In this document: positions 684 through 62,279 of the stretch, piece after piece
Layout: every line of letters starts with the position of its first letter
Numbering within the stretch: the stretch's first letter is position 1
NCBI GenBank assembly: GCA_033398695.1
Contig: CM065803.1
Span: 50,583,501 to 50,647,500 of the forward strand
Direction: 5' to 3'
Source: Orobanche coerulescens
Taxonomy: Eukaryota > Streptophyta > Magnoliopsida > Lamiales > Orobanchaceae
Length of the DNA: 64,000 nt
The notes under the pieces: model-generated
What the model was told of the DNA's origin: nothing
The model's input: the letters and a program-made list of their open reading frames with translations, nothing else
The model's database searches: none
Made by a program: the position numbers and the translations under genes

Positions 684-1804
684 TGTTGGGTTGGTACCAC
701 CACTATAGGGAGCGTTGAATAGTTCGGTGAAGAGTAATGAACTCCTTTGTGCGGAAGCGATAGAAAAGTGCGGAATATAAATGACATAAAGATTTATAGA
801 GGTTCAGCAATGTGGCTACATCCTCTCTCCTTCGCTATATTTTTCTATTGGTTCAAGATAAACCTTTCCGCCATATATTTGATCGGTCCGAGGTAAACTG
901 TTACAATCTTATCTTCAATCGGTCCAAGATAAACCGTTATAATCTTGTCTTTTTGTCGGTCCAAGATAAACCATTTTTCCTTTTCTATCGGATAAGAAAA
1001 CAACCTTTCTAGTTTTCTATCGGTACTAGAAGAACCTCATTTGGATTTAGATTATGATTCTAATAATACCGGATCCACGATCCTAATAACACTGAATCAA
1101 ATATACTATTCTTTATTTCCTCTCGTGTATAGTTTAGTGAATTAAACACTCAGACTCTTATCAATTAAGCTTGTTTACAACAATAATGATGTATACAATA
1201 ATCTCAGACATATATGAATTATGCTTGGAGATTTTGTATCTTGAATACCAAATGAAGTGGTATTTATAGGCTTGAGAACATAAACTAGTTGTTGCTGCAT
1301 GTTCTTTCATAGTGTACATTATGTTGTCTCCTTACCGTACTTTATGCTCTTAGTATACGTAAGTTTTTCCCTGTTACGTATATTAGCGTCCGTTCAATTC
1401 CGTACAGTAGCTACTGCTTCTTCCCTTGCGTACGGTATATCATGTTACGTACGTTAAGTACAACGGTATATGAACATTGTACAAGTTGACCTTCTAGATG
1501 CCTCCAACGGACTGATATCTAAATTTGCATATTAAACATCATATGCATGCATCCTAGCTACGTTAATCTGCAATGTTGCGTACATTAACCGTGTTTCATT
1601 GTGTGTGTTAACACGCCAGAATGTAATCACTACGTACATTATCTTTTTCTATTAGTGTATGTTAAGCTAGCTTTTGATTCACTTCTTTATTTTCAGATCA
1701 GCTCGTGTGTCTTTGACTGCTTGTTGATTAATTGTTGTTTTCCTTTGATCATCAATACATCATCAAAATCCTTTTAATATTGTGTGGAACAAAATGTTCC
1801 AACA
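684..1804 (-). repeat. Copia1 5' LTR (1121 bp)
   Basis: Bounded by TGTTGGG at 684 and TTCCAACA ending at 1804 (TG...CA termini). It contains a TATA box at 1259-1270 (minus) and, upstream of it, a run of degenerate ACGTACGT/GCGTACGG-type boxes (about 1310-1660). The stretch from 840 to 1030 (the R/U5 side) repeats a 'tcggtccaagataaacc' phrase at least three times, about 60-70 bases apart. Confidence 0.8.
1259..1270 (-). promoter_or_regulatory. Copia1 LTR TATA box
   Basis: The minus strand reads CCTATAAATACC, a canonical plant TATA box. It lies between the U3 repeat boxes (1310-1660) and the R/U5 side of the LTR. Confidence 0.6.
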
Positions 1805-2760
1805 AGATTATGCCTGAATCAGCACATAATTATTCAACAGTGCTATATACTCAAACCTCGGTCACTTCAAAGTGATTTTATTACAATTCAGCTAATTTTC
1901 AGCCTCATTTTTATACATTTTAAAGGCCTTGATTGCTTCATCTTTGTTTCTCAAAAGAAACACATAGCAATATATTGTGAAATCATCTATAAAAGTGATG
2001 AAGTATTTTTTTTACCACCTCTAGTTTGCACAAATTTTAAGTCATACACAATAGTGTGAATTAATTCTAGAGGAGTAGTATTCCTTTCCACCGAATGAAA
2101 AGGAGATTTAGCCATTTTTGCTTCAACACATATTTCGCATTTCTTGTTAATTTCAACATGGATATTAGGAATTAATTCTAGATTAATTGGTCTTTTAATC
2201 TATTTAGACCAACATGTCCCAATCTAGAATGCCATAAACCTGAACATTCGAGCAAGTAAACAGAAGAAGGAGCATTTCTATTATTATTATGATTCTTGCC
2301 ATCACGGCTTATATACATCACATCATTTTGAGTAATCCCCAATCAAGATAACCTTGACCTAAGAACATTCCAAACTTGCTCATAATAAATTTATCAAACT
2401 AAAAAACTAGTCTAAACCCATAACTAACTAGTAGAGAGCCTGAAACCAAATTCTTCCCGATGTTTGGAACATGCAACACATCCTTAAACAGTAGCTCATT
2501 TTCCAGAGGTCAGCTTTAAGATCTTCTTCCCCACACCTGCAATCTTAGAAGAAGCAGAGTTTGTCATATGTAATTTCATACCATATGGAATTTCTTATCA
2601 AGATAATGTACCAGGCACGGTGATTCTCCACCATATTGGTTTCAATCACCATAGTTGAGACCTCCTCGTCCAGCTCCTCAATCATGACTGACAGCTCCAG
2701 GTCTGGCATGTCAACATCGCAATGTTCAACCACATTAGAAACTCGCTTGCCTTTGTTTCG
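1805..2760 (-). pseudogene. pol: Copia2 protease-integrase remnant
   Basis: Minus-strand translation over several frames gives, in order, a decayed protease region (ETNMVENHRAW, near 2600-2660), a GAG_pre-integrase-like stretch with [18 protein letters not shown] (near 2430-2490) and the start of an integrase core. The integrase start shows [16 protein letters not shown] and [20 protein letters not shown] (2130-1950). These are conserved landmarks of copia Pol. Many stops and frameshifts interrupt them, and the protease active-site triplet is no longer recognisable. The region ends abruptly at 1804/1805, where Copia1 is inserted. The remaining integrase, RT and RNase H should lie left of Copia1, outside the window. 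Confidence 0.75.
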
Positions 2761-3664: not shown

Positions 3665-4076
3665 TGTAATATCCGTGTATGTTATTATCAAGATATTTTA
3701 ATTTTGGACGTATTCCATTGAGATTTGGGTTGTGAGTTTTCCATGCTGTATTGTGGTTATTTGGAATCGTGTGTATCGACGATTGGAATTGGAATGTTCG
3801 TGGTTGGAAATTGTTGAATTTGCGATTTTCGGATTGTGTTCGTTCTGATCGGATCGTCGGATTTGTGATTTGAGGGCTACGGCCGTAAGGATGTCGAGTT
3901 ACGGCCGTAAGGCCTTGTCGATTACGGCCGTAAGGCATTGCGAGTTACGGCCGCAATGGACTCATAGAAGTTGGGCAGTAGGTCGGCGAGACTCGTTACG
4001 GCTGTAAGGGTGTGCTGGTAATGGCCGTAAGGTACAGGTCGAGTACGGCCATAAGGGGATGGCCGAGTACGGCCGT
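3665..4076 (+). repeat. Element A 5' LTR, first segment
   Basis: Matches 20897-21323 of the 3' LTR from TGTAATATCC onward. It holds several TTACGGCCGTAA-type palindromes (from 3880). It is cut at 4076/4077 by element B inside one of these palindromes and continues at 13906. Confidence 0.9.
4072..4076. repeat. Target-site duplication of element B (left), GCCGT
   Basis: GCCGT precedes B's TGTAACACC terminus and is repeated at 13901-13905 after B's ATTACA terminus. The five bases are the right half of a TACGGCCGTA palindrome in A's LTR. Confidence 0.9.
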
Positions 4077-6628
4077 TGTAACACCCCAAACTAGGCGGAT
4101 ATTACAGTGCCGTGAATCCCCCAACTGGGACCCACTAGGCGAATGAAAATGATGAATTAAATAATATAATTGTAGTACCGAACCACATTATATTACCAAA
4201 TACTCCGATGAGGAGTTTAAGTACAACACACCAGACAATATCAATACTAGTATATTTTATATGAAGATAAAATACACGACAATCAATGAAACGGAGTATC
4301 CAAATGAAAGTCTCAATGGAAAATAAAGGACAATAACATGAATAATCAAAGATCGGGGCCCCTACTAGTATCACTGACTCGACGTCAGCGTGTTCTCCTG
4401 TACTTTTGCCTTGCCAAGACTGAAAAACAGAATCCCCAAACGGGCCGCCATACGTAACAACAATCCTCAAGGGTTGAAAATACACAATCATGATTATATA
4501 AGAAGTTATGAAATATCCAGCCGAAACATACGCAATCAAACATGCTATATGAATCAACTAACAAGACGGGCTCAAAGGGTGGCGCCACACTACGCCCGGG
4601 ATGGAAATGTGTCCGTGCACAAGCCACCAACGAGTATCGATCGAATACACGTGTGGTCTTGTACCTAATCGATCTCACGAGACAATATGACTCGTGTGCA
4701 CACCCAATGTGAGGCCAACAACCAACACACGACTTAAAACGTGCCCGACATGAAAATCCAACACATACCAACCAAAGACGCCAAGATGACCCGAATGCCA
4801 CGATATAACAAAAGTGACATCGAAAATGAATAATGACTCACCGAGATGGAATGATAGTGAAATAAATGACAACTCAACGAAATGATTGGAACCGCTGCTC
4901 CTTATGATCAAGTTATTAATTGACAATAACAAGTTTGATACGGTTAATACAATGATGAATGAATTATGATTATGAATGAACAACAACAAAAGGGATGAAT
5001 ATCCTTTTAACCGAGTAAGAATTAACTTACTCAACACCGGTGACAATTATCCTTCCACGAACAACGCCCTAATTGAGATATCGGTCGCCGAACAACCTTG
5101 AATAATTCAATTACCAACAATCCGCTCAATATACGAATCAAACACGAATATAACGAACTCAAAATGCCAATACGACTAAACCAAGTCCATTGAGGCATTA
5201 AATCAAACACGCTGCTCCAAACTCCGATTGTTTACAATCAAACCTCAATATACCAATATCAAATCCCCCAAGAAATGTTTCAAACCAACAAAACATCTTC
5301 AATACGATTAATAATCCAAAACGAATATCCAAAAACGTGATTATAACGACAATTAATCGAAAACCCCCAATTTCAACTCGATATTCAAAGTGTTCTTGAA
5401 TAATTCCTCAATAATCCAATGAATCCTTATACAAACTCATAATCATATACATATTCCTTCATATAACATGATTATAACGTCCAAAACATCATATCTCAAC
5501 AAAAAATCGAAATCTAAGGTGTTGAAGAATATTACCTTTGAAGATCCAAACACTTCGATCCGATGAAAATGTGTTAAATCTACTATCCAAGCTTCCCAAC
5601 GAAATAAGATGATGAAATCCGAAAACACAAGTGATTGATGATGACAAAATATCTCCCTCATGCTCTCTCTCTCTCGGACAAGATGAAGGAAAGGAATGAA
5701 AATGAGGAAAAATGTCCCGCCGAGTCCTTAACATCGCCTAAGTTACGGCCAGAACTCGCCCTCTTACTACTGCCGTAACATTCCAAGTCAACGGCCTTAC
5801 GGCCAGAATCGCCCAACTCAGACGGCCAGAACTCGCTTCGTCCGAAATCCCGCCGACAGACTTACGGCCAGAATCGCTTCGAGTTACGGCGTAACTCCGC
5901 CAAATCAAAACATCCGCCGACATCCTTACGGCCGTATCGCACACCTTACGGCCAGAACTCGGATGATACAAATGTATCCGGCCAAACTTACGGCGTAATC
6001 CGCCACAAAAACGACTGTGCATCTTGCAGCCAGACGTCCGTATCCGGCCAAGCCTTACGGCCAGACTGCTTGACTTACGGCCGTATGACGCAACCCTTAC
6101 GGCCGTAAGTCACCCTTGGTCGACAACACCTGAAATTTACGAACACCACTTACGGCCGTATCCTCCCCTTCTTACGGCCGTAACTCGCCTTCGGCCAAAA
6201 TGCCTGGGCAGCCTGGTGGACCACGTACGGCCGTACCCGCTGAACTTACGGCCGTATCCCGGAACCTTACGGCCGTAACTCAATGCTGGCCAAGGTGAAT
6301 AAAACCGATAACTCCGATTCCTCGCTACGAATGATGAATGATCCGACATACCATACGAATGTGAAAGTGAACAAGTCTAACACGAGCCAAAGATGATACT
6401 CCCCGTACAAGGCTATCAATCACAATGAAAATGATAATACTCCCGTCTCGATCTATACGGAGATGAAATGACGATCGGTAATTGATATACGATACAACAT
6501 GCCAACAGTGAACGCGAATGAATGATTCATGAATGATGAGTGATTATTAATGAGTGAAAATTACTGAGCGACAATTACAGACTGATAATTACTGAATGAA
6601 AATGAATGAATTACAACCGGGTATTACA
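4077..6628 (-). repeat. Element B 3' LTR (left copy, 2552 bp)
   Basis: Starts TGTAACACCCC and ends GTATTACA, and aligns with 11299-13900 throughout. It differs from its sister by many clustered 1-3 base changes. The palindrome array (5750-6290) has many CCGTAA cores read as CCAGAA, and the TATA-equivalent position (about 5730) is degraded. Confidence 0.92.
5745..6290. repeat. Palindrome array in B left LTR, degraded copy
   Basis: About 15 positions with TTACGGCCGTAA or partial forms such as TTACGGCCAGAA. Same spacing as the cleaner copy at 12975-13555. Short open frames here are only the translation of this repeat. Confidence 0.8.
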
Positions 6629-11294: not shown

Positions 11295-12962
11295 ACTCTG
11301 TAACACCCCAAACTAGGCGGATATTACAGTGCCGTGAATCCCCCAACTGGGACCCACTAGGCGAATGAAAATGATAATTAAATAATATAATTGTAGTACT
11401 GAATCACATTATATTACCAAATACTCCGATGAGGAGTTTAAGTACAACACACCAGGACAATACCGAATACTAGTATATTTTATATGAAGATAAAATACAC
11501 GACACTGAATGAAACGGAGTATCCAAATGAAAGTCTGCAGCGGAAAATAAAGGACAATAACATGAATAACTGAAAGATCGGGGCCCCCTACTAGTATCAC
11601 TGGGACTCCTTGACGTCAGCGTGTTCTCCCCGTACTTTTGCCTTGCCAAGACCTGAAAAACAGAATCCCCAAACGGGGTGAGTTACACAGAACAACAATC
11701 CTCAAGGGTTGAAAATACACAATCATGATTATATAAGAAGTTATGAAATATCTTGTCGAAACATACGCAATCAAACATGCTATATGAATCAACTAACAGT
11801 ACGGCTCAAAGGTTGTCGCCACACTACGCCCGGGATGGAAATGTGTCCGTGCACAAGCCACCAACGAGTATCGATCGAATACACGTGTGGTCTTGTACCT
11901 AATCAGTCTCACGAGACAATATGACTCGTGTGCACAGTCCAATGTGAGGCCAACAACCAACACACGACTTAAAACGTGCCCGACATGAAAATCCAACACA
12001 TACCAACTGGCACGCCAGTATGACCCGGAATGCCACGATATAACAAAAGTGACATCGAAAATGAATAATGACTCACCGAGATGGAATGATAGTGAAATAA
12101 ATGACAGCTCAACGAAATGATTGGAACCGTCGTTCCTTATGACTGAAGTTATTAATTGACAATAACAAGTTTGATACGGTTAATACAATGATGAATGAAT
12201 TATGATTATGAATGAACAACAACAAAAGGGATGAATATCCTTTTAACCGAGTAAGAATTAACTTACTCAACACCGGTGACAATTATCCTTCCACGAACAA
12301 CGTCCTAATTGAGATATCGGTCGCTCGAACAACCTTGAATAATTCAATTACCAACAATCCGTTCAATATACGAATCAAACACGAATATAACGAACTCAAA
12401 ACGCCAATACGACTAAACCAAGTCCATTGAGGCATTAAATCAAACACGTTGCGTCCAAACTCCGATTGTTTACAATCAAACCTCAATATACCAATATCAA
12501 ATCCCCCAAGAAATGTTTCAAACCAACAAAACATCTCCAATACGATTAATAATCCAAAACGAATATCCAAAAACGTGATTATAACGACAATTAATCGAAA
12601 ACCCCCAATTTCAACTCGATATTCAAAGTGTTCTTGAATAATTCCTCAATAATCCAATGAATCCTTATACAAACTCATAATCATATACATATTCCTTCAT
12701 ATAACATGATTATAACGTCCAAACATCATATCTCAACACAAAATCGAAATCTAAGGTGTTGAAGAATATTACCTTTGAAGATCCAAACACTTCGATCCGA
12801 TGAAAACGTGTTAAATCGACTATCCAAGCTTCCCAACGAAATAAGATGATGAAATCCGAAAACACAAGTGATTGATGATGACAAAATATCTCCCTCAAGC
12901 TCTCTCTCTCGGACAAGATGAAGGAAAGGAATGAAAATGAGGAAAAATGTCCCGGCCGAGTC

Positions 12963-12970
12963 CTTAAATA
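12963..12970 (-). promoter_or_regulatory. Element B LTR TATA-like box
   Basis: The minus strand reads TATTTAAG followed by GACTCGGCC, then ACATTTTTCCTC. This mirrors the downstream context of A's TATA box (GCCGAGTG, then CATTTTTCAC). It lies immediately downstream of the palindrome array. Confidence 0.55.
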
Positions 12971-12974
12971 CTGC

Positions 12975-13555
12975 CGGAAGTTACGGCCGTAACTCGGCCC
13001 TCTTACGGCCGTAACATTCCAAGTCAACGGCCTTACGGCCGTAACCGGCCAACTCGTACGGCCGTAACTCGGCTTCGTCCGAAAGCCTGCCGACAGACTT
13101 ACGGCCGTAACCGTCCCTGAGTTACGGGCATAACCCGCCTTCGTCAAAAACATCCGTCGACATCCTTACGGCCGTACCGCACACCTTACGGCCGTAACTC
13201 GGATGATACGGCCGTATCCGGCCAAACTTACGGGCGTAATCCGCCTTCGTCAAAAATGACCAGGCATCTTGCCTGCAGCGTACGGCCGTATCCGGCTAAG
13301 CCTTACGGCCGTACCTGCCTTGACTTACGGCCGTATGCCGCAACCCTTACGGCCGTAAGTCACCCTTCGTCGACAACACCTGAAATTTACGAACACCACT
13401 TACGGCCGTATCCTCCCCTTCTTACGGCCGTAACTCGCCTTCGGCCAAAATGCCTGGGCAGCCTGCTGGACCACGTACGGCCAGAATCGGCCCGACCTTA
13501 CGGCCGTACCGTGAACTTACGGCCGTATCCCGGAACCTTACGGCTGTAACTCAAT
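12975..13555. repeat. Array of TTACGGCCGTAA palindromes in B promoter LTR
   Basis: About 17 perfect or one-off copies of the 12-bp palindrome (core ACGGCCGT) within 580 bp, spaced roughly 20-60 bp, in otherwise unrelated spacers. The array sits in U3, just upstream of the TATA-like box. The left LTR has the same array in degraded form. Confidence 0.9.
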
Positions 13556-13900: not shown

Positions 13901-13905
13901 GCCGT
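13901..13905. repeat. Target-site duplication of element B (right), GCCGT
   Basis: Exact match to 4072-4076. A's LTR resumes after it. Confidence 0.9.
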
Positions 13906-15363
13906 AAGGTGTCGATCATTATGACCGTAATGCCTGGCCGAGTAACGGCTGTAATGCGCATGGGTGTTTCGAGAAATAGCTGATAAGGACCCGTTACAGC
14001 CGTAATGTACTGCCGGTTACGACCGTAATACACTCGGCTATATAAGGCCGAGTGATGGGTCACAATGTCATTTTTCACATTTTTCCTCCTCCTTCGCAAT
14101 TCTTCGATAGATTTTGAGAACTCTGATCAGGAGTGTCATTGTGCATCATTTTGGGGAGTTTGATTCGTGTCTAACATCATCCTTCACTCGAGTTCCGTCT
14201 GGATCAAGATAAAAATTCGTTCTTGTTCCTAGTTCTTCATATTTAGGGCTTTTGTTAAATTCTTTGATTTTAATCCATTCTAGCCTTGATTGGTGTTAGA
14301 TTATAATGTTGAAATCATAATCCTTCGTTTTTCTCCTAAATTCATGTATTAAATTCCAAGTTTTCTTCCGTAGCTTGAACTCGAACCACGTTGTCTTCGT
14401 AGTGTTCAATTAAATGTCTTTAAGGGTAAAACTTAGAGTAAATCCTTCCGTTTTCATGATGTGGCATTTTATTTGGTATTTTGTTGAACTAGGATTGAAT
14501 TGTTGAAGGAGTTCAGACCGTACGTTCTCCCATTTGTTGTTTCTTGTAGCATTCAAATCGAGGCAAGTACTTTGATTTTGTTTAATGTACTTCGTGTGAA
14601 TATGTGAAAAATGTGGTTTTGTGAAAAGTGGTAATTTCAGAAAATGTGATTTGTGCCAAAGTGATGTTTTCAAAAGTGCGACTTGAGGTCGTGTGCCAAG
14701 TAAAACCAGCAAGGGTCCCCTGGGTTCCGTAGACCGAGGCTTCTGCGGTCCACTTGGCTGGGTTTGTACAACAAGAGAGGCCTGACGAGGACTTCTGGGG
14801 AGAGGTATGTATCCCGCGTGAGATACAATACCTGTACAGCCCCCGTTGATATTTTGTGATGATGATTCTGATGTGGTATTCTGGAATATCTGTGATGGCA
14901 CTGTGATTTCTATGATCTATTCACTTGTTGTACATATTCTAGAATCATTGTACTTGCACCGGCTTCTTGCTGACCCCTTCGGGGGTGGATATACTTGTTG
15001 TGTATTCAGGTTCAGGTCCAGCGGGAGAGCCAGCACAGGGCGGACACGAGCTTGGTCGGCAGCATTGATACTGTGTATCATTTTGAGTTGGTGGTCGTGT
15101 TGTCATGGTCAGGGTCCTGTTTTGGTTTTGTACTCGCGCGGGTACTGTCATGTGATGTATATTGTGTTGTTGTTGATTGTTGATGACGTTGTTGTATCAT
15201 TTGTGAGCTGTTTCACCAGTCGTGATCTTTCGGGACGATGTTTTGTTTGGTCTTGTGATGTATGTCATATTGTTAATGTGTCTTATGTTGGTCTAAGCCT
15301 GATAGGTTCTCCAAAAAGGATCTACGATGCTGTAATATCTCCATAAATCACGGGGGTGTTACA
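13906..15363 (+). repeat. Element A 5' LTR, second segment
   Basis: Continues A's LTR to GGTGTTACA at 15363. It aligns with the remaining 3' LTR pieces (21324-21397, 30107-31338, 43609-43808). It contains the promoter (14031-14054). A frame of up to 166 codons at 14846-15346 has a counterpart in the 3' LTR only because LTRs are duplicates. Confidence 0.9.
14031..14054 (+). promoter_or_regulatory. Element A TATA box inside a perfect inverted repeat
   Basis: TATATAAG (14039-14046) is flanked by the exact 8-bp arms CACTCGGC (14031-14038) and GCCGAGTG (14047-14054). The 3' LTR keeps both arms around TATATATG (30158-30181). The palindrome boxes end just upstream. Confidence 0.8.
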
Positions 15364-15368
15364 AAATA

Positions 15369-15380: not shown

Positions 15381-16297
15381 TTATGTTTATGGATACCTAG
15401 GCTGTTGGTGTTTTGGGTCTGTTAAAGTTTAGTCGGTCTTTTGTTTATGCTATCACCGGTTTGCTGCCACCTCGTGCTGCCTGTGTTGGAAGTCCCTTCG
15501 GAGGTTAGTTATTCCTTCGTTTCGGGAATAATTGTTGATTGTTGTAATCTTTCATCTCCTCAATCTTCCCTTATCCTTCAATATGGGTGAATAATTTGTA
15601 AACTGAGACAGCTGTATTCATATAATGAATGATGTCGGTCGACAGATACGTTTGAGGATATCGTAATTATCTTAATTTTGGTATCAGGCATATCATATGA
15701 GAGCATTACTGGGATGAGTACACATATTCAGTATGTTGGGACGACAAGCAGGAGCATTTATAAAGGGTTATCATAGAAGCCATAACATGCACTAAGTCAA
15801 GGATCTAGCGTATGCTAAGATGTTAGGTGTAGCGTACGCTATATGTCATGTATATCGTACGCTATGGGAGATATTGGTTAGGGTTCAGGTTATGGCCGAC
15901 TAGTGGGACCCGTGGTCGGCAACTTTTGGCGTAGAGGTGGACAAGGCAAGTCAATAATTAAGCTAACGTACGCTATGGATTGCACATTACATATGTTAAA
16001 TGGGTGAGTTACTATAGCAAGTCAACGACTTTATTACGTATGCTAATGCATGGGCTTTTCGTACGTAAGTCATTGAAGGAATTAAAGCAGCAGCCTCTGG
16101 ATTGTTGTTGCCTACGCTATCGAAATCAGAACGCGTACGTGAGGCATTGATCGCGAATGTTGGTGTTGCATGTTGTACGTAAGGAAAGCTGACAGTGACC
16201 TCTGGATTAGTGTTACGTACGCTATCAAGGTCAGATAACATACGTAAGGAGTGTTACGTGCATTAGGTTGTTCGTATAGCATCTGTAGTGACTAGAG

Positions 16298-19048: not shown

Positions 19049-19588
19049 TGGTGGAGCAAAATCGAAATTTGCGTCGTTGTGTGAAAGCGTAAAAATAAAG
19101 TGCGGAAATTAACGAGACATGGATATAGAGGTTTGGCCAAACGTGCCTACGTCCTCTCTCTTGGTATCTTTTACTCTAGGATGAAGATCAAAACCTCTGC
19201 ACCTCTCTTCTATCGGTCGAGGGATTACCGTTACAAGATTGTCTTCTATCGGTCTGAGTAAAACCGTTCTCTTACTTGTCTTTTTGTCGGTCCAAGTTAA
19301 ACCATTTTCCTTTTCTATTGGACAAGGAATAAACCACTCTAGCTTTCTATCGGTACTAGATAAACCTCACTAAGATAGCGATTGCGATTCTAATAATGAT
19401 GGATCCTTGATCCTAATAACACCGAATCCAATCGTATCTTTTCTTTTACCTCTCGTGTATGTGTTGAATGTATAAACACTCAAACTAACAATATAAGATC
19501 AATATTACAACAACAATATAATGTATATGAATGTCAAATCAATGTCTTGAATACTTGAAGTTGTTGTGTGGATTAATACCAAGGATGT

Positions 19589-19601
19589 GGTATTTATAGC
19601 C
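19589..19601 (-). promoter_or_regulatory. TATA box of the copia solo LTR
   Basis: The minus strand reads GGCTATAAATACC, nearly the same as in Copia1 (CCTATAAATACC). The dyad-box array lies just upstream. Confidence 0.6.
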
Positions 19602-19639
19602 TTTTTCTTCAAACTATCCGTTGCTGACTTTTGACTTGC

Positions 19640-20150
19640 TAGCGTGCGCTAGCTCTTCTTCTTAGCGTGCGCTATCGCGCATTTTTACCTTAACATACGT
19701 TATGAATTCCATGTAGCGTACGTTAATGATTTGTAATTCCAGACCAGTGGCTACTGTCCATGACATTTAGCGTGCGCTAATATTTCCTTGTAGCGTGCGC
19801 TAATCTTGCATCATTGCATGCGTCATATATCCGTTTATACTTTTGACTTTGCTTCAGAATATTTCCAATGGATTGATTGACTTGATTTCAAACACATTAG
19901 CGTGCGCTATTCCTCATCCTTAGCGTGCGCTATGATTTCGTCATTGCTTACGTCATTCTGTGTTTGAATGTCTTCACAACGGTAAAATAACCTTCGATAG
20001 CGTGCGTTACTCTGCATGTGTAGCGTGCGCTATCTTCACTTTCTAGAGTGCGCTAGTCCATCAGGTAAGTCATTCAGGTAGCTTCTTAACTTGTCTGATC
20101 TGCAGATAACTCTCGTTAGCGTGCGCTATTCTTGCGTGCGCTAAGCATGT
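19640..20150. repeat. Array of TAGCGTGCGCTA boxes in a copia LTR
   Basis: About 13 copies of a 10-14 bp near-palindrome (AGCG, 2-nt centre TG or TA, CGCT) within 510 bp, with flanks TTA/TAA or A/T. The same box fills the U3 of Gypsy elements C and E. Confidence 0.9.
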
Positions 20151-20896: not shown

Positions 20897-21397
20897 TGTA
20901 ATATCCATGTATGTTATTATCAAGATATTTTAATTCTGGACGTATTCCACTGAGATTTGGGTTGTGAGTTTTCCATTATTATGGTTATATGGAATCGTGT
21001 GTATCGACGATTGGAATTGGAATGTTTGTCGTTGGAAATTTTTGAATTTATGATTTTCGGATTGTGTTTGTTCTGATCGGACCGTCGGATTTGTGGTTTG
21101 AGGGCTACGGCCGTAAGGATGCCGAGTTAAGGCTGTAAACGGGCGTTACGCCCTTTAGGCCTTGCCGATTACGGCCGTAAGGCATTGCGGGTTATGGCTG
21201 CAATGTACTCGTAGAAGTTGGGCAGTAGGTCGGCGGGACTCGTTGCGTCCGTAAAGGTGTGCTGGTAACGGCCGTAAGGTACAGGCCAAGTACGGCCTTA
21301 AGGGGATGGACGAGTACGACCGTAAGGTGTCGATCATTATGGCTGTAATGCCTGGCCGAGTAACGGCCGTAATGCGCCTGTGTGTTTCGGGCAGTAG
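20897..21397 (+). repeat. Element A 3' LTR, first segment
   Basis: Starts TGTAATATCC and matches 3665 onward. It is cut at 21397/21398 by element C (TSD AGTAG at 21393-21397). Confidence 0.9.
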
Positions 21398-22804: not shown

Positions 22805-23225
22805 CCGGAACTAGCGTCGCTAGCCTTCCCGACTAGCGTGCGCTATCGGCCGGCATCGGCCGAGCACACTCGGCCATGGCCCGCCGCGACCGGCACCACC
22901 GACCAAATCTGCCGACCGTGACTCGGCCGACTCCGCTGGCGTGCGCTACGGCCGGAAGCTGCGCGCTAGCTGGCATCCGGTGAGCCACTGGATCGACAAC
23001 TCCTCCGTGCGTACGCTAGTCGTCGGCCGGCGGCGCTACCCTGCCGGTTAGCGCGCGCTCGACCGGCGATGGCGTGCGCTACCGCCGATCTGGCCGAGTC
23101 GAGAACCTCGAATACCTCTGTCTGTGCCCGATAGCGTCTGGCCGACTCGGCAGCGTGCGCTTACAGCTGCCGAGCTAGCGCAGCAGGCCCCGGCCGTGGC
23201 GTGCGCTTACGCCGGTTCTGCCGTG
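22805..23225. repeat. Dyad-box array in C left LTR
   Basis: About ten AGCGTGCGCT or partial boxes among GC-rich spacers. The boxes are imperfect compared with 29120-29530. Confidence 0.75.
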
Positions 23226-25847: not shown

Positions 25848-26040
25848 AGATTTATATCGACACAATTAGCGTGCGCTAATCATTAAGGTTAGCGTGCGCT
25901 AACTGACTCAGACCAGTCCGGTAGCTCTGGATCGCCACGAACTACTGTGTAGCGTGCGCTATCCTCCCCTTAGCGTGCTACCAATGCACTCTTGCGCGCG
26001 CTTAGCCGCAAAGCGTAGCGTGCGCTAACGACCCACAGAG
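25848..26040 (-). promoter_or_regulatory. LTR-like promoter module inside C's interior
   Basis: A TATA-like GATATAAATC (minus, about 25850-25859) is preceded on that strand by five to six TTAGCGTGCGCTAA-type boxes (25866-26030). The arrangement is the same as in full LTRs. A possible LTR edge, AAAATTACA, ends at 26067. I could not find a matching other edge. Confidence 0.5.
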
Positions 26041-27699: not shown

Positions 27700-29105
27700 T
27701 TTTCTGTAACACCCCCAAGATATTCGAGGTGTATTACAGCGCCGTGGACCCCTACATGGGACCCACCAGGCTAACACAATAAAACACCACTCGACTAACC
27801 ATCTCGGTTAGCAAGGAAACAACTATTAACAACAAGAACATAAAACAACACGTCCGGTACAACCGGCATAATAAACATCAACCGACAAATACAGTAACTC
27901 CAACGAAGTCCAAACACAATCCGAAAAGAAAAGCCTAAGTACTCGCGAGTACAATCTATAAGTTTACAATTTGGAAAACATCCACATCAAAAGAGACAGT
28001 GGGAAATAACAAGACTCACCGCACATGTCAACAACCTTGGCCAACATCCTCGTACCATCCCAGCGCCCGCTCGTCTGGCTGAACATAACCTGAAATCCAT
28101 AACAAGAATTTCCCCGACAACGGGTCCCCAAAGGGGTTAGCAATTACGCTAGTACAAGTATTCAAGGCAAACCAATCGCTTACACATTTCATAGTACATG
28201 CACCAAAATCATTTCGAAAACCAAAACAAGACATGTCTTTTCCGGAAACAAACAGTCAAATAATTTGCCTTGGGAACAGAGTAATATCATAGATTCCCGC
28301 ACGAGGCCTCTAAGGACCCTCCCGCACTGGCTACATTACAAAAATAAAACACGCACATGCATCGCCTTGGGAACAGAGTAATATCATAGATTCCCGCACG
28401 AGGCCTCTAAGGACCCTCCCGCACTGGCTAGCTAAACAAACTCGTGAAATCCAGGGCGGCAGCATAGATTTCCCTCCTTGACCCCGTCGGGCCAACACGA
28501 GGTGAGTTACACACAAGTAATATACATCACCATTTCATGTTAAGCTTAAAGGTTTCCAAAAATACTTGCCTTGAATTATTGACGACGCAACGAACGGAAA
28601 GGAAAGTCGCCGACGAACGCTAGGAACCAATGAAACCGAACCTAACGATTCGAAGAATACAATCACAACCATTTCTAAATGAATATGGAATTGGAATACA
28701 CCCGAAAACCCGCCTACGATTCATGTATATTCGTATATAAACAACAACGAGGGCGGACCACAACCAAACCCTCTCGATTCCGTAAAAATCACGAAATATA
28801 CCATGAATCCGTAGGGAAACTAAGAATATCAACAAGATTAATCATATTCATCATGAATTAATCGACAAAACGGAACGAATCGGACAAAAACGCGAAAATC
28901 CCCAAATCTACCCAAAAGTAGGGTTCTAAAGATCTAACCTTGATTCATTTGGATCGAAGGATGTTATAGGATGATTGATCAACGATATAACCTCATGTAC
29001 TTCATGGATTTGTTGTTCTACAACTTTGTTTCGTCTCCTCCGAAACCTCACCATGGACCGAAGAGAAATGAAATGAAAATGACGGAGAAAGTCGTTGGTC
29101 TGTCA

Positions 29106-29114
29106 TTTTATATC
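29106..29114 (-). promoter_or_regulatory. Element C LTR TATA box
   Basis: The minus strand reads GATATAAAA directly after the dyad-box array, then ATGACAGACC. The downstream context resembles E (TGGCTGTCATTCC). Confidence 0.55.
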
Positions 29115-29119
29115 TGGCC

Positions 29120-29530
29120 GGAACTAGCGTGCGCTAGCCTTCCGACTTAGCGTGCGCTTATCGGCCAAAGATCGGCCGAGCACACTCGCCATGGCCCGCA
29201 CGACCGGCACCACCGACCAAATCGCCGACCGTGACTCGACCGCCGACTCCGCTAGCGTGCGCTACGGCCGGAAGCTCGCGCGCTAGCCGACTGGCCCAAA
29301 GAGCCACCGGATCGACAACTCCTCCTGCATCGTACGCTAGTCGGCCGGCGTGCGCTACCCCGGTTAGCGCGCTACGACCGACTGATGGCGTGCGCTACCC
29401 GCCGATCTGGACCGAGTCCGTAACCTCGTAATACCTCTGTGCCCGAGCACAGAGCGTCTGGCCGACTCGGCAGGCGCTACATCGCTGAAGCTAGCGCTAC
29501 AGAAGGCCCCGGCCAGAAGCGTGCGCTTAC
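29120..29530. repeat. Dyad-box array in C promoter LTR
   Basis: About eleven AGCGTGCGCT, AGCGCGCT or CGTACGCT boxes in 410 bp of GC-rich sequence, upstream of the TATA box on the minus strand. Confidence 0.85.
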
Positions 29531-36073: not shown

Positions 36074-36132
36074 TGATGTTTCTCAAGAAAAATATGAAAG
36101 AGAATAAACGAAATGCAGTAAAATGCAGAAAA

Positions 36133-53970: not shown

Positions 53971-54110
53971 TCCGATGATCCAGCGTTCATTGTCTAGATC
54001 CCCCGATGATCCCGTCAGACCAACCCGAGGTGGAAAACCCGTCCGATGATCCAGCGCACGCTAGCATAGATCCCCCGATGATCCCGTCGGACCAACACGA
54101 GGTGGACATA
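53971..54110. repeat. 71-bp-spaced direct repeat in E LTR1
   Basis: TCCGATGATCCAGCG starts at 53971 and 54042. Each unit ends in CCGTC(G/A)GACCAAC(A/C)CGAGGTGG, a phrase shared with C's LTR. LTR2 has the pair at 59830 and 59901. Confidence 0.9.
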
Positions 54111-54869
54111 TGACAACAATGCACAACTGCACAAAACAACAGTACACAATACACGACAACAATAATGCACAAATTCATGAGAACAACGATACACGAATGT
54201 ATCACGACATGATCGACACAAATGATAAAAATGATTACAGTACTTGCCCCGAGTCCTTCGAGAACGATCTCAATGTCTAAACCATCATGAACCATTATCC
54301 TCAATACTCGACGGTCTAAAGTATCACGGATTGCAGATAATTCATATCTTCGTCTTTATCACGATATATCCTTGATATACAAGTATACCAATAATAAAGG
54401 TAAATCATATACATTATGATTTAGATTCCCAAAACTCGAATACGATTTATAATCCCAAATCTCCTGTTACGATTATAAACATTGCTATACGAATTATACA
54501 CGAATGAAACGGAAACTATTCATTAAATACTATAAACTGAGCAAGTAATAACTTACCTCGATACCGATGAAGCCGTTACCAATTCCATTGCCGTCATCTA
54601 CAAGTCCCTTGGCCCTGATCAATGCAATTCACGAACATTCTCGAACACGACCGCAAAGCATGGTTTTAATCACCAATCAATAATCTCAACCTATTACAAT
54701 AATCGATAGACAATAAGTTTGATAACAATCAACAATCGATAAAACCAAATCACAAACCCAATAGCTTGGCAATATCTCGATTAAACACTAGTCGGATCAA
54801 TCCAACTCAAACCAGCACGAATTCAGAACCAAAACACAAAAATACTGCACTTTCTACCTTCTTAGTGCA

Positions 54870-54950
54870 CGTTAATCACTTAATGTAGCGTGCGCTAAGT
54901 TGCTCCCGTTAGTGCGCGCTAGGCAGTAAGCTTAGCGTGCGCTAATGCTG
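54870..54950. repeat. Minor dyad-box cluster in E LTR1
   Basis: Four TTAGCGTGCGCTAA-type boxes, away from the main array. LTR2 keeps them at about 60725-60810. Confidence 0.75.
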
Positions 54951-55622
54951 TACAGATGCATGTTTTTCAGATACTGATCAACATATGGCGATTATCAAGA
55001 GCACTAAGTGATTCTAAACCATGTTCATAGCTATCAAAACAACGAAATCCGATATCCTTTAACATATAAGTAATCATCCAACCCTTAATCCAATTCTTAT
55101 ATCCATATATCATCTTCCTCAATATCAACCTCATGAAACATTAAGAACGTAACAACACTTCCATAATCTATCATTACAGGGAGTAATTATCAACAATAAC
55201 ATCAACATTCGAAACTGAGGAGAAGAATTAACCAACTAATCTCAAGAAGACGAATCAACACGATTCAAACCATACAAATCACATTAATATCATCATACAC
55301 CAGTAATCCATCTCATAATCATACTTATCAACTTGTTTATGTAATAATCATCAACTCAAGAACATCAGCATTCGATCCAAAATGAAATCCAAAGATGAAG
55401 TGTGATTACCTTTTTGAAGGAATGGATTGATTTCGAAGGTTGAATCCATTTCCAAGAATCGCCAATGATTTAAAGAACAAAGATTTAATCCATGATTTCC
55501 ATCTTTAATCTTGTTAAATAGGACCATCCCTCAGTGTTTAGGAACTCCGAATGTCCTCCCAAGGTTCTCTCTATCGGTTGCAAGAAGAGAATAGACGAAA
55601 TGAGGAATGACAGCCAACTACT

Positions 55623-55633
55623 CATATATATGC
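55623..55633 (-). promoter_or_regulatory. Element E LTR1 TATA box
   Basis: The minus strand reads GCATATATATG, with the dyad-box array immediately upstream and TGGCTGTCATTCC downstream, as in C. LTR2 has the equivalent at about 61480-61490. Confidence 0.6.
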
Positions 55634-55644
55634 ACTATACATTA

Positions 55645-56150
55645 TTAACGTACGCTAACTTCTTCATTTAACGTACGTTACCAGTTTAGCGTGCGTTAAC
55701 ATTCTTTGTTAGCGTACGCTATCGAAGTCCAGAGACTACTATCTTGCTTCATACAATGATTTACGTACGCAATGCCCATGCAATAGCGTACGTAAATCGC
55801 TCCATTTAGCGTACGCAACCCTTCAAACGTAGCGTGCGCTACTCATAGTTGACTTGCTACAGTCTGCACCTACACCTGTGTCCCCACATGCCAAAAGTAA
55901 CCTGACACAACCAAGATTCCTTTGGTCCGTTCTGATTAGCGTGCGCTATCAATATACCTTAGCGTGCGCTAATCCTTCACAACAAACATCTGTTGACCTC
56001 GTCGGCACATGCGCCGAAAGTGGCCGGGTCCACACGTAGATTCCCTCTGAGCTATTCTGCACTAGCGTACGCTAACCTATGAACGTAGCGTGCCCTAAAC
56101 CTGCATGATAGCGTGCGCTATGCATGAATATTAGTGTGCGCTAATAAAGC
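55645..56150. repeat. Dyad-box array in E LTR1
   Basis: Fourteen boxes of the form TTAGCGTGCGCTAA, TTAGCGTACGCTAA or TTAACGTACGTTAA in 505 bp, with mostly unrelated spacers. It lies in U3, directly upstream of the TATA box on the minus strand. Confidence 0.92.
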
Positions 56151-56440
56151 TATACTTATCCATTTTCAGCTATTCTTGTCCAACGTCTCAACATACAGAA
56201 TACGAACATACGGCATACCAAATATACATACTCCTTCCAATAATATTCTCATACGATACATAATATCCTCAACTATAATTGTCGACCAAGTACAGTAATT
56301 ATACCAATACAGATGTCTTAGTCCTTCATTTATTTTATCCATACTGTACAGATTCCACGCTGTACAACATAACTCGGATAAAATAATATTAAACCACAGT
56401 AGTAGAAATTCCGGATATTACATACTACACCACTTAAAAT

Positions 56441-56460
56441 AAGTTTCGTCCTCGAAACTT
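56441..56460 (-). promoter_or_regulatory. Element E pre-PPT hairpin
   Basis: Perfect arms AAGTTTCG and CGAAACTT with loop AGGA (minus strand), followed by a purine-rich tract before LTR1. Second copy at 62298-62317. Confidence 0.75.
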
Positions 56461-58838
56461 GCAAGCCGTTATAGAAAAACAAACAAATCGTTCAACCAAA
56501 ATATTCCGAAACCATCACGACAACGGTCGATCGTCATTATTACCGAATAACCAAAACAGTACACTTACAAATGCGCAAATTCGGCGATCTCCTGAGATAC
56601 TTCCATGAGTCTCAATAAAATATATCCTCTTCGGATGAAATATTCTATCCGTGTCAAATCCTGTCTGCCTGATTACACAATCAAGTCCCAATCTGCTAAA
56701 AACCAATAATGCACGATACATCTGTGAAACAACTGCTCAACACAATGGCAACGAATCCCGAAACATCGACAGACAATCTGAACGCTCAGATGTTCACCAG
56801 CAATAATCAACCAATAAATTAACCGAGAATATCATCGACATGATAAACTCTAATACGACCAATCCAAAGGTCAAAACACAGTCGAGAATATCATCATCAT
56901 GATAAACTCCAATATTACCAACGAACGATCAACGAAAATCGAGAATACCTTCACACGGTAAACTCCAACACGATCAACACAGAACCACAGAAACCGATAT
57001 ACGAACTAATAAGGTTCTCAAAACGACAAACCAATCACATACAGTGGATCTAAAGAAACACACCTGACTGTCGAACATACTCCTCGGCATACGAACAACC
57101 AATCACAACCCGACGAACATATCCAATCATACATGGAGTGGGAATGACCACTCAATATCCAAAACAACCAGCATGGGGTTACCATCCCTAAATCTACACT
57201 TACAAAGAAATCATTCAAAAATCATTATGGTAGAGTCGCGCTACTACCATACCAATAGAATCACATAACACACGTACCGGTTTCACAAAATCCAAAGTTC
57301 CAAAATTACAACCTATGTATAAATCTACAACACGCAGCATATTTCTCTTATCTGATAATTCAACCGATCATCCCTGGATAACCAAACTGCCATACTGAAG
57401 TTCGAATCTCTATTCATAGTTCCATACTGATGTATTATCCAGTTTGTGAGTCACACTCATAACTTCACCATGATATGCATTATGCACTAAATGCGTATGT
57501 ATATCAATCATATTTTCAAAACCAGTTTGAAATCATATAGTCTTGTCAAGAAGACAAATTTTCGAAAGTCCTTTCAAAAATTTCAAAGATCAAAACATAA
57601 ATTTTGGTAAGACCACTTAATCAAATTTTGAAAAATTAAACTGGCTCGCTAATGCCAAGTATTCGATAACAGTTTCCTTCGAATCCACACGATTTCGAAG
57701 TTTAAAATGAAAACTATGCAAATAATTGACCACATCCATACTCCTGTATACCAGTTCGACTTGTTACCAAATCCACTGACATTCAATCAGAAAACTACAC
57801 GATAGAGTTCCAAAATCTAAATATATAAACTCCGACTAAAAACTCCTTTTCCACATATGATTCGCAACGTCAACCATTAATCCATCCTGGATCACCTCTA
57901 ATATGCTATGACAAAACATTGAATGACCAACAACTCAAACACATCGAAAGACTTCCCGAGAAGTTTCATTTGAACAAGTAACCCAAAACCGCAAAAGGCA
58001 GTAGGAAAATAGATAAATGATTGGTGAAGCGTTTTGCAAATCTCGGGAGTTTTAAGAAAACAGAAAATCCGTTTGAAACATTAGGGTCTCAGCCCGTATC
58101 TCGTTCCGCATTACAAGAAGTTTAAAAAGCAGAAAACCCTTTTTCGGACCCCAAGTCCTGAGTTATAAAACCATTTCAAAATCGATTGGGTCTCGGCCCA
58201 AAAATCATTTTCCGTAAAACATCCGTAAAACATTCATTTTGAAAAGTATCATTTCCAAATGCTCAAAAACAGTTCTTATATCTGAAAATGAACTAACATG
58301 ACTACATGTTCTCCTGAACAATCCACAATATTTCTCCCACACAACTCCGTTCCAAAGCTTAACCGACATATTGATTTCCAGAATCATAGTTTCTCAAATT
58401 ATCAATCATGTCCCAATTCTGTCACCTTATAGTGTAACGCATAATATTCTGCTGAATCTCAAAGCATATCAACTTAGAACAGCAATATATCTCGATGAAA
58501 TTCAAAAATCCAAATACTTACAGATCGTTAGGCCGACGATTCCCCGTGATACTGGCACATGTCTCGACTCTAGAAAATACTCGACACCGATATTTTCAAA
58601 ACACACGTTTTGCAAACTCAGTGCAACTCGAGAACACAACACAGCTCTCTGAAGAAACACGTTGACACCATTTGAAAAATTTTACAACAAGCCCAGTACT
58701 ACACTGATAAATCACATAACGCACAGTCCCGAGTGAACAACAAAACTCAGAGCTCTAATATTCGTCAATCGACAACTCGAATGACGCGACAAAAACACGA
58801 CCCAACTCGACCCGACTGCCTAGGTTTTCTCAACCTAA

Positions 58839-58850
58839 GCTCCGATACCA
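58839..58850 (-). promoter_or_regulatory. Element E primer-binding site
   Basis: The minus strand reads TGGTATCGGAGC, five bases from LTR2. Same variant as B and D. Confidence 0.85.
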
Positions 58851-58855
58851 TATTA

Positions 58856-61800
58856 TGTAACACCCCAGATCCGATGGAATATTACAGCGCCGTGGGCCCC
58901 AAACTGGAACCCACAAGGCTGAAGGAAATTTTCGCAAACATTTACAAATGCCCAAGAGGCTAACGATGGTACTGTCTTTTAAAAACATTCGAAGACTTAA
59001 TAAAAATCCGTTTATCAAACCGTCGTAAAATCTCATTTGAAACCACAAGGCCCGAAATGCCAAAGCTCAATAGTTTAAAAACATACGTTAAGCTATCGCT
59101 ACACGCATCGGCTGAATAGATTTAGAGAACGATTGCCAAAGTAACCTAAGTAACCAGATACCAAAAGACCATTTAAAAATACTCACGCAGCGATTCAAGA
59201 CAAACAAAAAAAATACTCTAACAGCGGAATACAAGAACTGATCAGGAAACTCAATACACAAATACATGCACTAGCCAGTATCCTCCGGGAAGCTCATCTC
59301 TCCACGACCGCTACAAGCTTAGTAATCCAAGAACCTAAAAAGAAAGCCCACGATGGGGTCAGCCATAATATCCAACAATGATAACCATCACATCACGTCA
59401 ATAATTACATATTCAATGGAAATACTAAGTAAGAGTACGACCAATGTAGTTTTACCGTAATTATCTATACGGTATCTCAACAATACCCAAGGTTTCTCAA
59501 AACATTATCATAACTCGCGATGCGGAAATTATACCAACTCTGGCCAATTCAATCCATCGGATAACGTCGACAATTCCAATACGATAATCGATTGTCCATC
59601 AAAGACATGTACCAAGGAAAATATGGAACATACCTCAAGATACGAAATACCATGACAATCACGTCTGTCTAATCCGAGATCAGATCAACAGAACATACGG
59701 ACATGGTCCTAACACAAGACCTACAAATGCATACTCATATGACAACGTCAATATGATCACAACAATAACGACAATGCATACTTGTGGCAAACCCATAATA
59801 TACATATGCACAAGAATAATACATGGCAATCCGGTTATCCAGCGTTCACTGCCTAGATCCCCCGATGATCCTGACAGACCAACCTGAGGTGGAAAATCCG
59901 TCCGATGATCCAGCGCACGCTAGCATAGATCCCTCGATGATCCCGTCGGACCAACACGAGGTGGACATATGACAACAATGCACAACTGCACAAAACAACA
60001 GTACACAATACACGACAAAAACAATGCACAAATGCATGACAACAACGATACACGAATGTATCACGACATGATCGACACAAATGATAAAAATAATTAGAGT
60101 ACTTGCCCAGAGTCCTTCGAGAACGATCTCAATGTCTAAACTATCACGAACCATTATCCTCAATACTCGACGGTCCAAAGTATCACGGATTGCAGATAAT
60201 TCATATCTTCGTCTTTATCACAATATGTCCTCGATATACAAGTATACCAATAATAAAAGTAAATCATATACATTATGATTTAGATTCCCAAAACTCGAAT
60301 ATGATTTATAATCCCAAATCTCCTGTGATTACGATTATAAACATTGCTATACGAATTATACACGAATGAAACGGAAACCATTCATTAAATACTATAAACT
60401 GAGAAAGTAATAACTTACCTCGATACCGATGAAGCCGTTACCAATTCCATTGCCGTCATCTACAAGTCCCTTGGCCCTAATCAATGCAATTCACGAATAT
60501 TCTCAAACACGGCCGCAAAGCATGGTTCTAATCACCAATCAATCATCTCAACCTATTACAATAATCGATAGACAACAAGTTCGATAACAATCAACAATCG
60601 CTAAAACAAAATCACAAACCCAACGACTTGACAATATCTCAATTAAACACTAGTCGGATCAATCCAACTCAAACCAGCACGAATTCAGAACCACAACACG
60701 AAAATACCGCACTTTCTACCTTCTTAGCGCACGTTAATAACTTAACGTAGCATGCGCTAAGTTGCTCCCGTTAGCGCGCGCTAGGCAGTAAGCTTTGCGT
60801 GCGCTAATCCGCATGCATGCATGTTTTCATATACCGATCAACATATGGCGATTATCAAGAACACTAAGTGATTCTAAACCATATTCATAACTATCAAAAC
60901 AACGAAATCCGATATCCTTTAACATATAAGTAATCATCCAACCCTTGATCCAATTCTTATATCCATATATCATCTTCCTTAATATCAACCTCATGAAACA
61001 TTAAGAACGTAACAACACTTCCATAATCTATCATTACAGGGAGTAATTATCAACAATAACATCAACATTCGAAACTGAGGAGAAGAATTAACCAACTAAT
61101 CTCAAGAAGACGAATCAACACGATTCAAACCATACGAATCACATTAATATCATCACACACCAGTAATCCATCTCATAATCATGCTTATCAACTTGTTTAT
61201 GTAATAATCAACTCAAGAACATCAACATTCAATCCAAAACGAAATCCAAAGATGAAGAGTCATTACCTTTTTGAAGGAATGGATTGATTTCCAAGGTTAA
61301 ATCCATTTCCAAGAATCGCCAATGATTTAAAGAACAAAGCTTTAATCCATGATTTCCATCTTTAATATTGTTAAAGAGGACCATCCCTCAGTATTTAGGA
61401 ACTCCGAATGTCCTCCCAAGGTTCTCTCTATCGGTTGCAAGAAGAGAATGGACGAAATGAGGAATGACAGCCAACTACTCATATATATACACTATACATT
61501 ATTAACGTACGCCAACTTATTCATTTAACGTACGTTACCAGTTTAGCGTGCGCTAACATTCTTTGTTAGCGTGCGCTATCGAAGTCCAGAGACTACTATC
61601 TTGCTTCATACAATGATTTACGTACGCAATGCCCATGCAATAGCGTACGTAAATCGCTCCATTTAGCGTACGCAACCCTTCAAACGTAGCGTGCGCTACT
61701 CATAGTTGACTTGCTACAGTCTGCACCTACACCTGTGTCCCCACATGCCAAAAGTAACCTGACACAACCAAGATTCCTTTGGTCCGTTCTGATTAGCGTG

Positions 61801-62279
61801 CGCTATCAATATACCTTAGCGTGCGCTAATCCTTCACAACAAACATCTGTTGACCTCGTCGGCACATGCGCCGAAAGTGGCCGGGTCCACACGTAGATTC
61901 CCTCTGAGCTATTCTGCACTAGCGTACGCTAACCTATGAACGTAGCGTGCCCTAAACTCGCATGATAGGGTGCGCTATGCTTGAATATTAGTGTGCGCTA
62001 ATAAAGCTATACTTATCCATTTTCAGCTATTCTTGTCCAACGTCTCAACATACAGAATACGAACATACGGCATACCAAATATACATACTCCTTCCAATAA
62101 TATTCTCATACGATACATAATATCCTCAACTATAATTGTCGACCAAGTACAGTAATTATACCAATACAGATGTCTTAGTCCTTCATTTATTTTATCCATA
62201 CTGTACAGATTCCACGCTGTACAACATAACTCGGATAAAATAATATTAAACCACAGTAGTAGAAATTCCGGATATTACA
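58856..62279 (-). repeat. Element E LTR2 (3424 bp), probable hybrid LTR
   Basis: Aligns to all of LTR1. The left about 2.7 kb is diverged and lacks the 60-bp stretch. The right about 0.7 kb is nearly identical to LTR1. This two-part pattern is what unequal recombination between the two LTRs of one insertion would leave. Confidence 0.88.
61500..62010. repeat. Dyad-box array in E LTR2
   Basis: The same set of about fourteen boxes as LTR1, with a few changes such as AGGGTGCGCT for AGCGTGCGCT. Confidence 0.88.

Follow-up and report, generated by a model that had tools for sequence, protein, structure and literature searches.

Oriented near-palindromic box arrays upstream of TATA in Gypsy and copia long terminal repeats of Orobanche coerulescens

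Why do long terminal repeats (LTRs) of two separate retrotransposon superfamilies, Gypsy and copia, carry the same short boxes ahead of their promoters? The question is raised by a stretch of 64,000 nucleotides from Orobanche coerulescens (contig CM065803.1, positions 50583501-50647500; hereafter the window), taken from an assembly of 3,646,015,169 bases (3.65 Gb) in 1,279 contigs. The window is made up of nested LTR elements, in which element A contains elements B and C, copia element D and an LTR resembling that of a further element, E (the E-like LTR). A preliminary description of this DNA had noted arrays of near-palindromic boxes in front of TATA and proposed convergent recruitment of a host DNA-binding factor, or exchange between elements. 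Judging from the sequence organization described below, we consider it likely that the arrays are upstream activating sequences of the LTR promoters, serving a putative dimeric factor or factor family, probably of the host, that was recruited independently by different elements.

The boxes have the general core TTA(R)CG-NN-CG(Y)TAA and fall into three classes: TTACG-GC-CGTAA (GC class), TTACG/TTAACG-TA-CGTAA (TA class) and, on the sense strand, TTAGCG-CA-CGCTAA (CA class). Boxes of the GC and TA classes are perfectly palindromic, and the most frequent 14-bp class has an asymmetric, oriented centre, so that the earlier term 'dyad-symmetric' needs this qualifier. Matches to TTAGCGTGCGCTAA with at most 3 mismatches number 98 in the window against 2.84 expected (largest of 100 shuffles, 10), and matches to TTACGGCCGTAA with at most 2 mismatches number 59 against 1.54 (largest shuffle, 6); the boxes lie where they had been reported and are far above chance. 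The enrichment holds genome-wide. Exact TTAGCGTGCGCTAA occurs 228,904 times in the whole assembly, on both strands (113,783 + 115,121), TTACGTACGTAA at 170,680 sites and TTACGGCCGTAA at 184,551, compared with 3, 255 and 83 for the respective reversed words. The form ACGTACGT, previously regarded as degenerate, is one of the three classes, every one of which is common across the genome. The box described as common to C, E, a solo copia LTR and a module in the interior of C is indeed shared by them. It had been given on the antisense strand of C, E and the copia LTRs, and their sense box is therefore TTAGCGCACGCTAA.

Beyond the window, boxes were surveyed in a genome sample of 10-kb stretches, evenly placed (not random) on three chromosomes (C1-C3) and labelled L0xx, of which 20 or 25 were used; all box statistics come from one genome. 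In a ranking of 10-mers across 20 stretches from C1-C3, restricted to those with at least three different letters, each of the top nine is a box word; ACGTACGTAA (50) comes first, followed by GCGTGCGCTA and partner words (39 each). These 20 stretches contain 120 strict boxes, against 10, 3, 9, 9 and 12 in five Markov sequences, and five box models applied to 25 stretches yield 195 strict boxes in 23 arrays, located in 14 of the 25. Centres of TTACG-NN-CGTAA in the first 200 kb are TA in 16 of 28 cases, GC in 9 and others in 3, and those of TAGCG-NN-CGCTA are TG or CA in 39 of 47, CG in 5 and TA in 3. Scans of IMG/VR using box pairs matched 0, 4 and 3 contigs.

The arrays of the window are as follows.
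1309..1665, minus strand: Copia1 LTR array of degenerate TA-centred boxes, with TATA CCTATAAATACC at 1259-1270; the LTR end is homologous to the coding copia L033.
3877..4076, plus strand: A 5' LTR array, part one, GC class, interrupted by the B insertion inside a box.
13906..14047, plus strand: A 5' LTR array, part two, terminating in TATA CTATATAAGG at 14038-14047.
5743..6278, minus strand: B 3' LTR array, GC class with TTACGGCCAGAA variants.
12962..13549, minus strand: B 5' LTR array, 19 boxes (loose cut-off), GC class, with TATA-like GTATTTAAGG at 12962-12971.
15805..16265, plus strand: array of the E-like LTR inside A, TA-centred, with no TATA word seen directly after it.
19589..20144, minus strand: solo copia LTR array of 12 CA-class boxes, with TATA GGCTATAAATACC at 19589-19601.
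21105..21372, plus strand: A 3' LTR array, first part, resuming at 30121-30155 beyond the inserted C.
22833..23209, minus strand: C 3' LTR array, CA class, with the TATA word altered.
25850..26028, minus strand: C-interior module of CA-class boxes, with TATA GATATAAAT at 25850-25858.
29105..29529, minus strand: C 5' LTR array, CA class, with TATA GATATAAAAT at 29105-29114.
54862..54945, minus strand: second array of the E LTR, 4 boxes, downstream of the E TATA and with no TATAWA within 60 bp.
55623..56144, minus strand: E LTR array, 14 boxes with CA and TA centres, with TATA CATATATATG at 55623-55632.
60724..60807, minus strand: small additional array in the other copy of the E LTR.
61502..62001, minus strand: main array in the other E LTR copy (58856-62279).

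A TATA word in sense orientation follows the arrays of A, B, C, E, Copia1, the solo copia LTR and the C-interior module. The common promoter layout claimed at the outset therefore stands for A, B, C, E, Copia1 and the solo copia LTR and is not universal, strict boxes being absent from both LTRs and the interior of copia D; the window likewise has no strict box between 43.8 and 52.9 kb. The TATA word is changed in the 3' LTR copies of B and C. Across 35 arrays from window and sample, LTR partner copies included, TATAAA or TATAAG pointing outward occurs 14 times in the 4,119 bp that lie within 60 bp of array edges and 19 times in 27,200 bp at 100-500 bp out, and the opposite strand of the same 4,119 bp has 3. 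This enrichment is directional and about five-fold, and extends the proximity to TATA beyond the window, contrary to the lack of enrichment in other copies that had been set beforehand as grounds for rejecting the idea. The word TATAWA adjoins 19 of the 35 arrays, 1-21 bp off the edge, or 40 bp in the arrays of the solo copia LTR and L022. A first version of the TATA test was positive in 7 of 15 arrays against a baseline of 0.185 (p=0.012), yet 6 of 15 also scored in its wrong-orientation control; because TATATA is self-complementary, it was replaced by the directional test. The arrays are thus repeats upstream of TATA in the orientation of transcription, the position of a U3 promoter array.

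Box centres are also regularly spaced. Of 204 adjacent pairs in 31 arrays, 101 have centres separated by 22-24 bp, 65 of them at exactly 23 bp, while random placement in the same spans (1,000 runs) produced a mean of 16.4 such pairs and a maximum of 29. At least one pair with this spacing is present in 30 of the 31 arrays, and 12-bp and 14-bp boxes keep it alike. With a single array taken from each of 10 unlinked groups, it accounts for 37 of 74 distances and appears in all ten groups. The count over 31 arrays omitted most LTR partner copies (window 5700-6300, 22800-23230, 60700-60900 and 61000-62300; L033 beyond 9000) and retained both copies of A; permutation p-values are optimistic because arrays share ancestry. 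Wider distances, from 30 to 115 bp, group at 41-47, 51-54, 74-76 and 103-107 bp, with a best period of 10.6 bp (R=0.445, n=77) that 0 of 2,000 uniform draws equalled. In the first 3 Mb of C1, the period that best fits the site positions is 10.3 bp (p=0.0085; 0.089 when set against any period), or 10.4 bp once likely LTR partners are removed (p=0.03; 0.21 against any). Helical phasing, with wider gaps in multiples of about 10.5 bp, is regarded as suggestive. Between the boxes, spacer information reaches at most 0.2 bits around the CA class and at most 0.3 bits around the TA class; for the GC class (30 boxes, about half of them from the single B array) it rises to 0.7 bits at one position.

The asymmetric centre has a fixed polarity. 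With array orientation taken from the TATA side or from LTR anatomy, never from the box centre, CA predominates on the sense strand in 13 of the 14 oriented arrays that contain CA or TG centres, and the remaining one is tied; sense-strand centres counted box by box are CA in 76 cases and TG in 7. These counts exclude 5 of the 23 sample arrays as unoriented (L018 6281, L021 3988, L029 2526, L036 6785 and L040 1369), and the arrays counted are related by common ancestry. Class can differ between relatives at the same position: when three related copia LTRs are aligned, degenerate TA boxes of Copia1 stand opposite CA boxes of the solo LTR and L022 at four positions, with some spacer words alike, the alignment within the array being uncertain. 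Similarly, the start of the B LTR aligns with L031 and L034, and the B array is of the GC class while those of L031 and L034 are of the CA class; replacement and re-coding are indistinguishable here because the arrays themselves do not align. Sense polarity and differing classes at aligned positions are both new relative to the preliminary description.

That the same boxes occur in Gypsy and copia promoters, as had been claimed, is borne out by coding elements of both superfamilies. L028 is a coding Gypsy (RVT_1, RT_RNaseH and zf-CCHC, with Retrotrans_gag just under the cut-off) whose LTR, bounded by a primer-binding site (PBS), contains a CA-class array. L033 is a coding copia (RVT_2, SH3_retrovirus and Retrotran_gag_2) with a 97% LTR pair that bears TA-centred arrays. 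The end of the Copia1 LTR matches the L033 LTR at 72% over 144 bp (E=1.5e-19) and L022 matches it at 70% over 108 bp (E=3.5e-9); among 30 shuffles, the best value was 1.7e-4. The solo LTR matches L033 at shuffle level (E=1.9e-4) and L022 at 74% over 1,241 positions, and 97 bp surrounding TATA in the box-less copia D LTR likewise match L033 (E=3.4e-6). Spacers aligning between Gypsy and copia LTRs had been named beforehand as the sign of simple sequence transfer. With boxes masked, the solo copia array aligns with the arrays of C, E, the E-like LTR, B and A no better than shuffles do (p from 0.27, against E, to 0.995, against C), so the copia and Gypsy spacers compared do not align, while known relatives do (E with the E-like LTR, p=0.005; solo LTR with Copia1, p=0.025). 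Masked pairs with p<0.05 number 5 of 36, namely the two pairs of known relatives and three Gypsy-Gypsy pairs (0.03-0.05).

The spacing, the fixed polarity, the switching of classes and, more weakly, the helical phasing together point to a sequence-specific DNA-binding factor. We propose that each TTA(R)CG-NN-CG(Y)TAA box would be bound as one unit by a dimeric factor recognizing TTA(R)CG half-sites on either side of the two-base centre; this would most probably be a host protein, either one transcription factor or a few paralogues. Such a factor would dock at each 22-24 bp step beside TATA and the core promoter, with wider gaps tending toward the same face of the helix. Several Gypsy and copia lineages would have gained and multiplied the box independently; as the preferred specificity changed, boxes within an LTR would have been re-tuned in place, giving rise to three classes. 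Protein binding, a dimer, host origin, activation and selective history are what we infer from these patterns. A fixed polarity suggests a complex that contacts its site asymmetrically, and the existence of several classes suggests paralogues or a specificity that shifted over time. Of the convergent recruitment of a host factor proposed earlier, the sharing, the enrichment, the proximity to TATA and the non-aligning spacers hold up; host origin, activation and convergence as opposed to exchange of single boxes are the conjectural part. Sites of NAC, SBP, BZR and MYB factors each seem to suit at most one class, and none is proposed.

Several observations weigh against this reading. The fixed polarity of the centre is left unexplained by a simple homodimer. 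TATAWA within 60 bp is missing from 16 of the 35 arrays, some of which carry TATTTAA or a more distant TATAAA, and two small arrays, in the C interior and the second one of E, lie outside U3. Several arrays are not of a single class (CA and TA in E, L021 and L040; TA and GC in L033 and L035), so homogeneity of class holds only in part. When each group is represented by one array, the phasing falls to p=0.029 for a period of 10-11 bp and 0.22 against any period of 6-20 bp (n=29). Nor are CpGs in the boxes consistently protected. Deaminated CpGs in one LTR copy, in boxes against outside, number 10/22 against 29/90 in A, 10/38 against 12/119 in B, 0/20 against 18/187 in C and 3/42 against 26/125 in E, so that box CpGs decay at least as fast as others in A and B, whereas C and E show slower decay in boxes; the figures point neither to nor away from methylation protection, and the idea was dropped.

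Other explanations account for parts of the same evidence. The binding factor might be encoded by one retrotransposon family and exploited by others, in the manner of VANC, with the arrays marking elements for anti-silencing or activation. Dense same-orientation arrays with diversification of types resemble VANC targets as set out in parts of PMC5735166, and the array-bearing copia L033 has, between its pol and its 3' LTR, an additional PF20167 frame (L033:3014-3781, minus strand), whose protein has 13 database relatives, every one from Orobanche. However, copia D has a PF20167-like frame in the same location (window 35471-36082, minus strand; E=0.00028, below cut-off) and yet no boxes, the list of open reading frames (ORFs) of at least 170 aa for Gypsy L028 shows no extra frame besides gag and pol pieces, and sharing across superfamilies is more simply explained by a common host factor, which leaves an element-encoded reader unlikely. 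Quite unlikely, too, is that sequence transfer (template switching or gene conversion), and not independent recruitment, carried boxes from Gypsy to copia LTRs or back. Such movement would suit the identical 14-bp words and identical polarity of both superfamilies and the mosaic differences between the 5' and 3' LTR arrays of B, which are suggestive of conversion; against it, box-masked copia and Gypsy arrays align no better than shuffles, and homologous copia boxes switched class while adjacent spacer words persisted. Single boxes, too short to leave traces, may nevertheless have been transferred as a route of sharing.

Two further readings place the function of the arrays elsewhere than in activation. 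As landing or chromatin sites (integration targets, silencing or an insulator), the arrays would fit the insertion of B inside a box of A, of C inside the A array and of an element in L018 that starts at 6294, 15 bp from a box. These insertions are few, most sampled insertion boundaries are not near boxes, successful elements would not be expected to accumulate silencer sites and the adjacency of TATA in promoter orientation favours promoter function, all of which makes this reading very improbable. The least probable in our view is that the arrays act in RNA, where U3 forms part of the transcript's 3' end and palindromes could pair within or between genomic RNAs (stability, dimerization or packaging). 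Palindromic boxes are able to pair, most fully the perfect palindromes of the GC and TA classes, and a role in RNA would account for the fixed strand. It is the sense CA centre, which mispairs with itself, that predominates over TG, which would pair (-14.3 against -20.0 kcal/mol for self-pairing of sense RNA), and this weaker self-pairing argues against an RNA role, as do the 10.5-bp period and the proximity to TATA, which are features of DNA.

If binding by a host factor is correct, the approximately 584,000 exact boxes of three types in 3.65 Gb would amount to a very large, naturally occurring set of putative transcription-factor sites. Two retrotransposon superfamilies would be shown converging on one promoter grammar, and class switching would be readable as the traces left by a conflict of elements with a trans-acting factor. 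A broader and rather doubtful extension is that the GC, TA and CA classes are interchangeable oriented promoter codes, common to unrelated superfamilies and re-coded in place, in an arms race with diversifying DNA-binding proteins, of the host or borne by transposable elements, that would decide element expression.

The anatomy of the elements was re-derived from LTR termini, PBS, polypurine tract (PPT) and target-site duplications (TSDs), as follows.
Copia1 LTR, 684-1804, minus strand: the element extends past the left edge of the window.
Element A, plus strand: TSD CTATG; host of B, C, D and the E-like LTR.
Element B, minus strand: TSD GCCGT; inside A.
E-like LTR: inside A, itself interrupted by the solo copia LTR.
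Solo copia LTR, 19049-20277, minus strand: TSD GTTAT; within the E-like LTR.
Element C, minus strand: TSD AGTAG; inside A.
Copia element D, minus strand: AGCTG at both flanks; inside A.
Element E, 52939-64000, minus strand: tandem LTR-interior-LTR-interior, with the second LTR copy at 58856-62279.

The units of E are 96-98% alike, with LTRs of about 3.4-3.5 kb and no coding noted in the interior, as in a large non-autonomous element. ORF lists for the interiors of C and E contain short frames and no notable retrotransposon frame (ORF lists only, no Pfam). The 'Gypsy' label given to C and E therefore rests on the termini, PBS and PPT that they have in common with B. The frames tested in B yielded SH3_Tf2-1 and zf-CCHC only, and the match to a C-terminal integrase chromodomain (PF00385; E=0.0012, 19.2 bits) is under the 25.1 cut-off. 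B is thus no more than a candidate Tekay-type chromovirus, a clade that also figures in PMC4381496. The B LTR arrays (5743-6278 and 12981-13549) diverge far more than the remaining LTR; several boxes read TTACGGCCAGAA in the 3' LTR and TTACGGCCGTAA in the 5' LTR, and one is reversed, which looks like conversion from another copy. The insertion of B falls inside an A box (4072-4076 / 13901-13905), to which the TSD GCCGT belongs, that of C falls within the A array (21393-21397 / 30102-30106) and an LTR in L018 starts at 6294, 15 bp from a box; an integration preference for arrays is possible. The noncoding interior of C has its own array and TATA in the sense direction of the element, a possible internal promoter (25850-26028), and a piece similar to this module flanks an insertion in L018. 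A minus-strand reverse transcriptase fragment at 52415-53095 (RVT_1, E=3.9e-23) extends into the end of the E LTR and looks like that of a long interspersed nuclear element. Both the window and the first 200 kb of the sample have an observed/expected CpG ratio of about 1.02, which seems high for a repeat-rich eudicot genome. The assembly also contains 42 matK matches, many of them broken and in chromosome-size contigs, which resemble nuclear copies of plastid DNA. One matK frame (L041) has 92% identity to a protein of Orobanche hederae and 89% to one of O. austrohispanica, as befits a parasitic broomrape.

Literature searches for the exact motif and half-site strings gave nothing on retrotransposon promoters at title and abstract level, and at the same level, mostly outside subscription journals, no published description of these boxes was found. 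Repeated U3 activator boxes upstream of the LTR TATA, like the arrays here, occur in tobacco Tnt1 and Tto1, where they consist of other motifs and are not known to extend beyond single families. Gypsy expansion in Orobanche has been approached through repeat abundance, in a study that describes amplification of Tekay-type Gypsy elements and, in the portions drawn on here, makes no mention of palindromes, motifs or promoters (PMC4381496); the arrays would offer a cis-regulatory handle on this expansion.

In Arabidopsis, VANC proteins bind dense arrays of same-orientation motifs that diversify with VANDAL groups, as described in parts of PMC5735166. The Orobanche arrays are alike in consisting of dense short motifs with the same orientation, as the CA sense centre shows, in lying in noncoding transposable-element sequence and in differing in type between related elements. 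In contrast, the VANDAL motifs are not described as palindromic in those parts of the paper, lie in DNA transposons and have a reader protein encoded by the element, whereas the Orobanche boxes lie upstream of TATA in LTRs, and no element-encoded reader was found for them. The recruitment that we favour has a closer counterpart in the heat shock factor (HSF) sites (nTTCnnGAAn) of Brassicaceae COPIA LTRs, such as ONSEN/COPIA78, which evolved repeatedly, according to sections of PMC5059998. Both are cis-elements of LTRs, read or putatively read by a host factor, with duplication and recurrent gain in several families. The boxes do not match the HSF core, their own cores reading TTA(R)CG-NN-CG(Y)TAA. 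Furthermore, the HSF sites are reported there for COPIA and are a known motif, whereas the three Orobanche palindromes are common to Gypsy and copia, form long arrays and number in the hundreds of thousands.

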